Assembly: GCA_023131975.1 (NCBI GenBank)
Contig: JAGLYV010000090.1
Coordinates: forward strand, 1-39,029
Source of the DNA: Candidatus Krumholzibacteriia bacterium
GTDB taxonomy: Bacteria > Krumholzibacteriota > Krumholzibacteriia > Krumholzibacteriales > Krumholzibacteriaceae
Reading direction: 5' to 3'
Length of the DNA stretch: 39,029 nt
Position 1 is the stretch's first letter; each line of letters opens with the position of its first letter. A program made the position numbers and the translations under genes. Shown piece after piece: positions 16,263 through 23,623 of this stretch. The notes below the pieces were generated by a model. It was not told the origin of the DNA and did not search any database. It saw only the letters and a list, made by a program, of their open reading frames with translations.

Positions 16263-17801
16263 TTATTCCTTTATGATGCCTCTGTCGACCAGCTTTACCA
16301 GGTTCTTGACTATTGTAAGATCGAATTTATCTCCCTGCCCGAGGAGCAGATCGAGAGCTTCCCTGTGCCCAAGAGCTTTGCGGTACGGCCTGTTACTCGT
16401 CATAGCATCAAAACTGTCAGCAACGGCGACTATCCTGGCGCCCGTCGATATCTCGTCCCCCTTCAATCCGTCAGGATACCCGTTCCCGTCGAGGCGCTCA
16501 TGGTGATGCCTGACCAGGTCGCATGCCGATTCGAGAAACTTCATGTTCTTGATGATATTAGCCCCCACCTCGGGATGGCTTCTGACTACTTCCCACTCAT
16601 TGTCGGTCAATTCCCCTGGCTTGTTCAGAATCGTCTCGTATACTCCCAGCTTTCCTATGTCGTGCAATACGGCTCCGAAACTGACGGTATCGCGCTGATC
16701 TTTGTCCATTCCCATTTCTTCGGCGAGCGCACGGGCATACCCGGCCACTCTTTCCGTGTGACCTTTCGTGTAGCTGTCTTTCGCTTCGATAGTCGATACG
16801 AGTACCTTGATAGTGGAGAGATATGTATCCTGCAGTTCGGAGTACAATCTCGAGTTCTCAAGCCCCGTCGCGGCGGACGAGCAGATGGACCTGAGCATGG
16901 CCAGATCTTCCCTGTTGTATGGAAGTTTATTGATCTTCTCCCCGAGAAAAATAATCCCGGTAAGATGGGAATTCACTATCAGGGGGTAACAATAGGGAAA
17001 CCCAAGGTCCCGCAGAAAAACAGACTCCCTGGCAACATCCTCCGGTAATCCACGATCCTGAAGATATACGACGTCTTCTTTACTGAGCAGATACTTGGAG
17101 AGTCCGTCACTTCTTGTCAGCCGGACGGCCTTGAGAACGTTGTTCCTGAGCCCCTTCCCTCCCACATAGGAAAGATAGCGATCGGTGTTTTTCTCAGCGT
17201 AAAAAAGCGCCACCGAATCTATGGCAAGCTGGCCGATCACTGTCAGGAAAAAGACATGGGTCAACTCTTCTGGATCACGAAGTCTGTTGAGGTCCTTGCT
17301 CAAACTGAACAGGGTCTCGAAATCCAGGATCTTCTTCTTCAACTCCCTGTTGATGCGCTTGTAATCCTTCTGTCCCTGCTCCAACTCGTCTTCGAGGATC
17401 TCGTTTGCCTCTCTGAGGTTTTTTCGTCCATTGGCCTGCACGAGGAAATTGTCTATCTTCGCCAGGACTTCCTTGACAGAAAATGGCTTTTTTATATAAT
17501 CCTGAGCTCCGGAGTTGAACCCTCGGAGCATCGTATCGGGTACGGAATTGCCCGAGATCAGAATGACAGGCACATCGTTGTTCACGTCTCTGGAACGGAT
17601 CTCGTTACAGACGCTGAACCCGTCTTTGCGGGGTAGTCCCACATCCAGCACCACAAGGTCCGGATGGTATTTCTCATACGCTTCGAGTGCCGATACCCCA
17701 TCGTAAGCTGATTCAGTCCTGTAACCGTTGCTCTGGAGAGACTCTGTGATGATCTCTACAACGTTGGGATCGTCATCGACTACGAGTACGTTCTTGATCA
17801 C
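16263..17801 (-). CDS. Response regulator with REC, GAF-like and HD-GYP domains
   Basis: A 512-residue cytoplasmic protein starting at a GTG. The receiver domain (1-120) is complete: acidic pair D10/D11, phospho-acceptor D53 in VVLDVGLP, S83, and K105 in KKPF. A coiled coil follows (about 125-165), then a GAF-like region (about 165-330) and an HD-GYP domain (about 335-510). The HD-GYP residues look intact: HDIGK with H380/D381, HPEVG, HHERLDGNGYP with GYP at 441-443, and ADSFDAM. HD-GYP enzymes hydrolyse c-di-GMP, so phosphorylation of D53 probably controls c-di-GMP breakdown. It is the last of five genes and lies 13 bases after the degenerate HD-GYP gene. No histidine kinase with a recognisable catalytic site is in the cluster. 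Confidence 0.92.
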   Translation of the reverse strand: MIKNVLVVDDDPNVVEIITESLQSNGYRTESAYDGVSALEAYEKYHPDLVVLDVGLPRKDGFSVCNEIRSRDVNNDVPVILISGNSVPDTMLRGFNSGAQDYIKKPFSVKEVLAKIDNFLVQANGRKNLREANEILEDELEQGQKDYKRINRELKKKILDFETLFSLSKDLNRLRDPEELTHVFFLTVIGQLAIDSVALFYAEKNTDRYLSYVGGKGLRNNVLKAVRLTRSDGLSKYLLSKEDVVYLQDRGLPEDVARESVFLRDLGFPYCYPLIVNSHLTGIIFLGEKINKLPYNREDLAMLRSICSSAATGLENSRLYSELQDTYLSTIKVLVSTIEAKDSYTKGHTERVAGYARALAEEMGMDKDQRDTVSFGAVLHDIGKLGVYETILNKPGELTDNEWEVVRSHPEVGANIIKNMKFLESACDLVRHHHERLDGNGYPDGLKGDEISTGARIVAVADSFDAMTSNRPYRKALGHREALDLLLGQGDKFDLTIVKNLVKLVDRGIIKE

Positions 17802-17814
17802 AGCATACCAGCTT

Positions 17815-21695: not shown

Positions 21696-21700
21696 CCCTG

Positions 21701-23623
21701 TTACTGAGAAGGTGTCTGTTTAACGTATTCTGTGGCTCCCAGCTCGAACAGATCGTAAATCGGTTCTTTGCTATCATCGGTTTCCCCGGCAGCCGTCTCC
21801 GTATCTTTCTGAGTCGCCTGAGCATGATTCATGTCTACTGCCTCACGGATCGTCTCAGTCATCCGTTCCATCATCTCTTCCGGTGAATCATCATTGACAG
21901 ATTTCCCGGCAACCTCGACTATCGCCTGCTTTTCAGCAATGTCTTCATGCGAGTCTTCCCGGGCAATCTCGACTTCGGGAACTGCTTCCTCAATAAGTGC
22001 TTCCTCGACAGGTGCTTCCTGTGAAGTCCCTTCCTCCTCCGCACCTATTTTGACCCAGCGATGTCCTGGCATTTCCATCATGTCATCGCCAGGCTGCGGA
22101 CCATCGGTCTGTCCCTCGGGTACTTTTCCCTCGGGTACTTTCGGTGTCTCCACTTCAGGAACCTTCTCAGGTTCGACTTTTTCAGAGTCCTCGATCGTTA
22201 TACTCTTGCTGTCTATATGTGTATCCGCTTCGATGAGGTCATCGGGTTCCCAGCTGTTGCTCCTGTCGAGTACCAGATTGTCATCCTCTACCTGATCACT
22301 GGCTTCTTCTTCGCTCTCCCGACCGAACGACACGAACGAATCTGACGATCCGGAACTTTTATTCGTCTCGATCACAAAATCATCTTCGAGGCTATCATCG
22401 ATCCGGTCACCAGACAGGACCTTATGTATCTCTTCGTTAAAGGTATCGATCTCGCTGCCGAGAGAGGTGACCCTCTCCTGCAGAGAATGGTTCTTCATCT
22501 CTATCATATTCGATATCTCTGAAAGAGATTCGGTGATCCCTGAAGTATCAGGGGACAAGCCGGCAGGAGAGACAGTACCAGTCTCCAGAGTCTGGAGCCC
22601 TGTACCGATCCTGCGGGACGTATCGGATATCTGCATGCCCAGCTTGTTGAAGCGTTCCGCTGTCGACCTGACTTTCTCGGCGAACTGGGCCAGATCCTGT
22701 TCGGATATATCACCCCTGGCCGCCATCAGTGCAATATTGAGCGCCAGACCGTTGTTCTCCTCGGAAAACTCGTTCATCGCCCTGCTGCCGTCATCAAGGA
22801 TAACGAGAGCCTCTCTGATGTCAGTAACGACCTGGTGGGCATTCCCTCCATCCGTAGCCTGTTTGGCCGGCCCGACATTTTCGAGCTCTTTTACCGTATT
22901 GTTCAGGCTTCCGACAGCTCTGGCGATCTCGATGATATCATCGTTGGAACCACCGAGCGATTCCATCCACTTCCCGAATGATAACGCCGCTCTCGCGATG
23001 ACCTGACGACCCGCTTCGGACCTGTCATCCTTCCCGCCTTCAGAACCTGAAACATGGTCCGCCACTTTCCGGACAAGCGATTCATACCACTTTCCTTCCA
23101 GAATGGTCTCATTTATTCCTTTTCCGCTGAGTACCGACTCGATTTCCATCTCGAGATCTACCGACTGTGATTCATCCACCCTGCTGCTGAGTTCCCCGGA
23201 GATCTCTCTTATCTGATCCCCATAGTTACGCAGTATGCCCTGCAGCTCTGGATAGTTTGACAACTTGGCTATCTGAGCCGGATTGGTCAGGTCGTCTATG
23301 CTGCCGGCCAGGGATATCATCTTTCTATAATCCTGCCCCGAGGACAGGTAGGACTTGTACCGCCTGACAGCCGAAGCTATTGTGAAATACGCGATCAAAG
23401 CTATGAGAATGACTCCTGCCACCATCGGATACATCTCTTTGAAGAATCCGAATGAATCGACCACCCACTTCGAATCGGTCGTATTCAACCAGGTCAGGCT
23501 GATGTTATAGACATTTACAAGGTAGTATCCGACCCCGAAGCTGGTGACTACCAACATCAGAGCTACAAACATCCCGATTTTCCAGGGTGATGTCAGAACG
23601 GGTCTCTTCTCTGATTTTCGCAA
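21701..23623 (-). CDS. MCP-like membrane protein without a sensor domain
   Basis: A 640-residue protein starting at a TTG six bases after AAAGGAG. Two membrane helices (about 16-37 and 66-86) enclose only about 28 residues, too few for an ordinary ligand-binding domain. A long helical cytoplasmic part follows. At 286-303 it reads FSEENNGLALNIALMAAR, closely resembling the chemoreceptor hairpin tip that binds CheW and CheA (canonical [16 protein letters not shown]). Sequence around the tip is shorter than in true MCPs and no methylation repeats are obvious. From about residue 380 the chain becomes acidic and Pro-rich (PEKVPEVETPKVPEG), ending with a more ordered IYDLFELGATEYV. I infer a scaffold that recruits the CheW-containing protein encoded next. 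Confidence 0.75.
   Translation of the reverse strand: MRKSEKRPVLTSPWKIGMFVALMLVVTSFGVGYYLVNVYNISLTWLNTTDSKWVVDSFGFFKEMYPMVAGVILIALIAYFTIASAVRRYKSYLSSGQDYRKMISLAGSIDDLTNPAQIAKLSNYPELQGILRNYGDQIREISGELSSRVDESQSVDLEMEIESVLSGKGINETILEGKWYESLVRKVADHVSGSEGGKDDRSEAGRQVIARAALSFGKWMESLGGSNDDIIEIARAVGSLNNTVKELENVGPAKQATDGGNAHQVVTDIREALVILDDGSRAMNEFSEENNGLALNIALMAARGDISEQDLAQFAEKVRSTAERFNKLGMQISDTSRRIGTGLQTLETGTVSPAGLSPDTSGITESLSEISNMIEMKNHSLQERVTSLGSEIDTFNEEIHKVLSGDRIDDSLEDDFVIETNKSSGSSDSFVSFGRESEEEASDQVEDDNLVLDRSNSWEPDDLIEADTHIDSKSITIEDSEKVEPEKVPEVETPKVPEGKVPEGQTDGPQPGDDMMEMPGHRWVKIGAEEEGTSQEAPVEEALIEEAVPEVEIAREDSHEDIAEKQAIVEVAGKSVNDDSPEEMMERMTETIREAVDMNHAQATQKDTETAAGETDDSKEPIYDLFELGATEYVKQTPSQ

Follow-up and report, generated by a model that had tools for sequence, protein, structure and literature searches.

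The window, a stretch of 39,029 nucleotides from Candidatus Krumholzibacteriia bacterium (phylum Krumholzibacteriota; contig JAGLYV010000090.1), carries on its minus strand a cluster of five genes (16263..23623), the products of which range from a chemoreceptor-like membrane protein to a predicted HD-GYP phosphodiesterase for cyclic di-GMP (c-di-GMP). The source genome is a 2.79-Mb metagenome-assembled genome in 171 contigs, 96% complete. An original prediction, made from the letters of the DNA, had described five genes in one direction, with gaps of 5, 62, 24 and 13 nucleotides and a terminator behind the last gene, and the coordinates and the stem followed by a run of T residues agree with that description. 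The features of the cluster are as follows.

21701..23623, minus strand: MCP-like membrane protein, 640 residues; two transmembrane (TM) helices, coiled coil, hairpin tip, acidic linker and C-terminal peptide
20028..21695, minus strand: CheA-like protein, predicted pseudokinase, 555 residues; P1-P3-P4-P5 fold
19726..19965, minus strand: DNA-binding protein of the HTH_17/excisionase type, 79 residues
17815..19701, minus strand: STAS, disordered linker, GAF and pseudo-HD-GYP protein, 628 residues
16263..17801, minus strand: REC, GAF and HD-GYP protein, predicted phosphodiesterase, 512 residues
16206..16229, minus strand: intrinsic terminator 3' of the last gene; 9-bp stem, then TTTTTTT

The Pfam domains recognized were REC, GAF and HD_5; STAS, GAF and HD_5; HTH_17; and, weakly, CheW (E value of 4e-4). 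Gene order in relatives was checked on maps of 35 orthologous loci, in which the order was receptor, CheA-like protein, HTH protein, STAS/HD protein and REC/HD protein, all in one direction. The five genes were complete and collinear in 20 of these loci, and most of the loci without the full set were interrupted by contig ends or lacked the REC/HD-GYP gene. The five-gene cluster is a real unit at the level of the phylum, far beyond chance. One genome (G075, locus L062) was an exception, with the part that codes for the STAS/HD and REC/HD proteins elsewhere in the chromosome; it was the sole genome in which these two genes lay apart from the remaining three, possibly through rearrangement or an assembly error. 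Relatives of the CheA-like protein were found in families f1, f2, f3, f5 and f8 of the class (labels f1 to f8 are those of the search tool), and a scan of the genome contigs with the single CheA-like protein gave no match.

Relatives of chemoreceptors and CheA

The MCP-like protein of the window had no convincing Pfam match when searched alone, and the MCPsignal family (PF00015) was matched by 19 of 28 orthologues at E values up to 1, with a best value of 1e-6. When a structural match to chemoreceptors was sought, the receptor family profile matched solved chemoreceptors with an E value of 1e-12, the hairpin tip aligned without gaps over 39 residues to a canonical MCP encoded in the source genome, and the helix in the AlphaFold2 model was broken directly after the residues AAR, the place equivalent to the helix break of the MCP hairpin turn. 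Disorder in the linker lowered the mean predicted local distance difference test score (pLDDT) of this model to 62. As judged from profile and alignment, the first protein is a true relative of chemoreceptors. Two segments of it are of interest.

22649..22765, minus strand: hairpin tip SEENNGLALNIALMAARGDISEQDLAQFAEKVRSTAERF, aligned to the canonical MCP
21725..21754, minus strand: receptor C-terminal peptide DLFELGATEY, conserved phylum-wide

The residues with which canonical MCP tips make trimers and contact CheA and CheW were not kept, and the window protein has MAARGDISEQDLAQFA instead. There was no ligand-binding domain and no HAMP match in the receptor, and only about 30 residues separate its two TM helices. 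The C-terminal peptide (also given as DLFELGAVEY) is reminiscent of the one with which canonical MCPs tether CheR and CheB, but its sequence differs. This genome has a single copy of it, and receptors of f6 have one to four copies (DLxELGAV), the last of which lies ∼11 residues from the protein end. A second DLxELGA match in the genome was dismissed as chance, since it falls on the noncoding strand of an unrelated gene. The acidic linker of the receptor contains a perfect 15-nucleotide tandem duplication at 22112-22141 and short motifs (VIDHGxxW and WMEMPGHxW) similar to those in the linker of the STAS protein.

The profile of the CheA-like family matched CheA with an E value of 1.4e-10, and the AlphaFold2 model of the window protein (pLDDT of 80.6) matched CheA of the Escherichia coli core unit in Foldseek with a value of 2.4e-14, so that a structural match to CheA/CheW was found here as well. 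Profile and fold matches delimited a P1 domain, a P3-like helical hairpin, P4 and a CheW-like P5. The phosphorylated His of P1 was absent from 27 of 27 proteins, where Arg, Lys, Ser or another residue took its place (Arg51 in the window protein), and the Asn of the N box was replaced by Asp in the same 27 (Asp303). In the window protein the glycines of the G1 and G2 boxes are missing, with the G2 box and the ATP lid deleted. With the P1 His, the N-box Asn, the G2 box and the ATP lid lost, the protein is predicted to be a pseudokinase, that is, a kinase-dead CheA fold. The distant relatives from f5, f8 and one f3 genome have an added C-terminal receiver, as does FrzE of Myxococcus, a CheA-like protein; the cluster differs from the Frz system in having neither kinase and phospho-acceptor residues nor methylation genes.

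These residues bear directly on whether the unit could be a conventional nonmotility chemosensory pathway of the Wsp or alternative cellular function (ACF) type, in which the receptor would signal to CheA and CheA would phosphorylate the REC/HD-GYP protein. The Wsp system also encodes a receptor (WspA), a CheA-type protein (the CheA-REC protein WspE) and a REC-controlled c-di-GMP enzyme (the REC-GGDEF protein WspR) in one operon with a nonmotility role, the functions come in the same order in the cluster, and the receiver of the REC/HD-GYP protein has its key Asp and Lys in 21 of 23 cases. However, an active CheA that could phosphorylate the REC output was not found in the unit, in which the catalytic CheA residues are missing; CheR, CheB and a separate CheW are not encoded in it; and some hosts have no other CheA or CheW that might stand in. 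In contrast to Wsp, the cluster includes a STAS/pseudo-HD-GYP protein and an HTH protein, and its output would degrade c-di-GMP through an HD-GYP domain. A conventional pathway is therefore strongly disfavored.

A similar tie between a chemosensory core and c-di-GMP breakdown exists in Pseudomonas aeruginosa, where the c-di-GMP phosphodiesterase Pch is bound to the CheA complex (PMC3861689). Unlike the cluster enzyme, Pch is an EAL protein; the CheA in its complex is active and flagellar, and Pch acts in a manner that requires the CheA phospho-His (PMC3861689).

The source genome has a separate, complete canonical che cluster on another contig (C150; locus L069, 8000-18600), with genes for CheR, MCP, CheW, CheD, CheB, CheA, CheC and CheY, which we named from their sequences and Pfam matches. 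Flagellin was not detected in the source genome, in f8 or in most of f1 and f2. The unit is retained in f8, f3 and two f5 genomes, among which the canonical CheA dimerization domain was present in only one (f8) genome, and six of the genomes with the unit in f8, f3 and f5 had no match to PF00015 or PF01584 anywhere. A role in ordinary chemotaxis was therefore rejected, as had been anticipated in the original prediction: the unit occurs without flagellin and without any other MCP, CheW or CheA. Assignment to a defense system was also rejected: PADLOC gave no match, and the NCBIfam models for a defense HTH protein (51.6 bits; cutoff, 80) and ZorA (17.3 bits; cutoff, 250) stayed far below their thresholds.

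Two HD proteins and selection on the unit

The last gene (16263-17801) is predicted from its residues to encode a c-di-GMP phosphodiesterase. Positions H348, H380, D381, H409, H433, H434, D462, D342 and K384 were present in 23 of 23 proteins, which, together with the receiver residues given above, bears out the earlier claim that the last gene keeps an intact receiver and HD-GYP domain. Compared with enzymes of the RpfG/PmGH class, it retains seven of the eight PmGH metal ligands and the Asp/Lys pair, and it differs in that the bridging Glu (the E185 equivalent) is replaced by Tyr, which puts it in the Y/F subfamily, and in having an inactive paralogue beside it. The source genome encodes three GGDEF domains.

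The STAS/HD protein has GAF and HD-GYP domains in common with the REC/HD protein (∼30% identity), which suggests that the two genes arose by duplication. In 49 of 49 STAS/HD proteins the His of the HD pair (H380) is Arg, giving Arg-Asp or Arg-Asn; H348 is lost in all 49, and K384 is replaced by Met, Leu or Gln, yet the HHExxNGxGYP motif is largely retained. Replacement of the matching residues of PmGH (H189, H221 and K225) with Ala essentially abolished hydrolysis (PMC4159591). A precedent for a catalytically inactive HD-GYP protein is Bd1817 (cited in PMC4159591), which binds a binuclear iron center through conserved residues that include the HD diad, whereas the HD His of the STAS/HD protein is itself replaced. 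The phospho-Ser position of the STAS domain, located by eye in the DSSG motif, holds Leu, Met or Val in 27 of 27 proteins and Leu in the window. Thus, the loss of catalytic residues that had been noticed in the window protein set extends to the CheA-like, STAS and pseudo-HD domains of the relatives. The linker of the STAS/HD protein (residues ∼111 to 262) contains conserved VILMSYDG and IISEIF segments amid variable acidic sequence.

It is very unlikely that the HD proteins act on cyclic di-AMP (c-di-AMP), supplied by the neighboring synthase CdaA, rather than on c-di-GMP. Such a link is suggested by the position of cdaA, which in most families converges on the cluster, but convergent genes are not cotranscribed, HD-GYP enzymes are known to act on c-di-GMP and cyclic GMP-AMP (cGAMP), and the closest relatives in the PDB are phosphodiesterases for these two nucleotides.

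The ratio of nonsynonymous to synonymous substitutions (dN/dS), computed between two sister genomes, was 0.024 for the pseudo-HD domain, 0.083 for the intact phosphodiesterase, 0.094 for P4 and 0.039 for CdaA. The pseudo-HD domain is more strongly selected than the intact enzyme beside it, and the “degenerate” parts are therefore functional and not decaying. That the cluster consists of remnants of a chemotaxis operon in decay beside an unrelated phosphodiesterase is hardly credible. The loss of several catalytic motifs and the even further reduced CheA-like protein of f6 would fit such decay, but most folded parts of the cluster proteins are under purifying selection (dN/dS of about 0.02 to 0.2), the replacement residues are invariant across the phylum, and the gene order is fixed.

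Sigma-54-type promoters, gene X and the HTH protein

The regions upstream of the unit and of a divergent gene beside it, designated gene X, contain the following features.

23715..23729, minus strand: sigma-54-type (-24/-12) promoter TGGCATAATCTTTGC, 5' of the receptor gene and serving the unit
23826..23836, minus strand: dyad TGCAAAACGCA, mostly 105 to 108 nucleotides upstream of the -24 element
23960..24832, minus strand: carbon-nitrogen hydrolase (amidase), a neighbor by synteny in most families
24884..24898, plus strand: sigma-54-type promoter TGGCACAAACTTTGC for gene X, shared by most f1, f2 and f8 relatives
24955..25749, plus strand: gene X, encoding a 264-residue protein, beside the cluster across the phylum

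The pattern TGGCAN6TTGC was present in 24 of 24 orthologous upstream regions, compared to 0.035 expected in shuffled sequences, and f3, f4 and f5 had sites resembling it. The dyad may be a binding site for an activator or for the HTH protein. Central control over the exterior of bacteria has been proposed as a role of sigma-54 (PMC3162934). The product of gene X has an invariant EDVNxY motif and no relatives in the PDB, Pfam, NCBIfam or PADLOC. The conserved sigma-54-type promoter, gene X and the receptor C-terminal peptide are new in this analysis.

The HTH protein was the most conserved member of the cluster (69 to 100% identity); 74 of the 80 phylum genomes encode it, as do 45 of the 46 good ones. 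The gene had a dN of 0 relative to the sister species. Its synonymous divergence (19726-19965) was also low, 0.143 versus ∼0.38 in its neighbors.

In most families the unit is flanked by the amidase gene on one side and by a convergent cdaA-folP pair; in the window, cdaA, which encodes a c-di-AMP synthase, lies at 15139-15915. The amidase is probably outside the mechanism of the cluster.

A proposed signaling unit without CheA phosphotransfer

The reading that we favor, with a probability of about 0.42, is that the cluster encodes a chemosensory-derived unit that works without CheA phosphotransfer, as a membrane scaffold that gates the REC/HD-GYP protein and possibly the HTH regulator. A sigma-54 activator would turn the operon on. 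The MCP-like protein would sit in the inner membrane, where its hairpin tip and the CheW-type P5 domain of pseudo-CheA would pack together to form the scaffold, and the C-terminal peptide of the receptor and short conserved motifs of the acidic linkers may dock cytoplasmic partners. As a noncatalytic paralogue, the STAS/pseudo-HD-GYP protein could pair with the REC/HD-GYP protein through their common GAF and HD domains and sense or relay a signal. The REC/HD-GYP protein would hydrolyze c-di-GMP once its receiver had been phosphorylated by an unlinked kinase, and the HTH protein may control the unit or other genes. What the data show is a sigma-54-type unit of chemosensory parts, conserved and under selection, with a kinase predicted to be dead; the formation of a complex and its gating of c-di-GMP hydrolysis, suggested in the original prediction, we infer.

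Several results weigh against this reading. The REC/HD-GYP gene is missing in f6, which is the largest family, in f4 and in all but one of the four f5 genomes; the CheW-type domain is lost in f6, and an array therefore cannot be the universal core; the receiver of the REC/HD-GYP protein lacks its key Asp residues in two f3 genomes; and Foldseek with the MCP model alone was weak (best E value, 2.2e-3).

The unit of f6 consists of a receptor (two TM helices; profile match to the window family with a P of 7e-18), a protein of mostly 200 to 350 residues, the HTH protein and the STAS/pseudo-HD protein. No CheA-like protein could be detected by sequence in f6; the second protein retains what may be a P1-like part and, in some members, the degenerate receiver of distant CheA-like relatives. 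A sigma-54 site was not found 5' of the receptor gene or gene X in f6. In f4, all that is kept of the cluster region is the HTH gene and gene X, together and with sigma-54 sites. The HTH protein, gene X and, outside f6, the sigma-54 promoter thus persist where the phosphodiesterase is gone. Because the phosphodiesterase is absent from f6 and f4, its c-di-GMP output is a clade-specific branch that is not universal, and the most widely held core lies with the HTH protein and gene X. In lineages of this kind the scaffold and the pseudo-enzyme would serve just the branch of the HTH protein or gene X.

This distribution could also be explained by a transcription switch, in which the HTH protein, with X, is the core, the MCP-like, pseudo-CheA and STAS proteins hold or release it in the manner of partner switching, and c-di-GMP hydrolysis is a clade-specific addition. 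The exceptional conservation of the HTH protein, its persistence with X and sigma-54 sites in f4 and the occurrence of receptor, HTH and STAS proteins without a phosphodiesterase in f6 all speak for such a switch. However, HTH_17 proteins are small DNA binders for which we know of no sequestration partner, the phospho-acceptor position of the STAS domain is Leu, Met or Val, and no target promoter of the HTH protein was identified. We consider the switch rather unlikely.

A broader form of the scaffold reading, in which complexes that signal without CheA phosphotransfer occur throughout the phylum, is tentative. The receptor and pseudo-CheA would provide a platform to which the peptides tether the pseudo-HD-GYP sensor, accompanied in some lineages by the active phosphodiesterase, and the complexes would switch a sigma-54 regulon.

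To our knowledge, chemosensory systems depend on CheA autophosphorylation, and we found no description of a system like this one in the papers searched; searches outside the phylum consisted of exact-pattern scans. If the scaffold reading is true, the chemosensory set of folds would be reusable as a scaffold after phylum-wide loss of the phospho-acceptor and the ATP site, and in this role would be linked to c-di-GMP turnover. The work also delineates a candidate sigma-54 regulon and introduces gene X as a new protein family, and the receptor C-terminal peptide that it brought to light lends itself to direct tests with small proteins.

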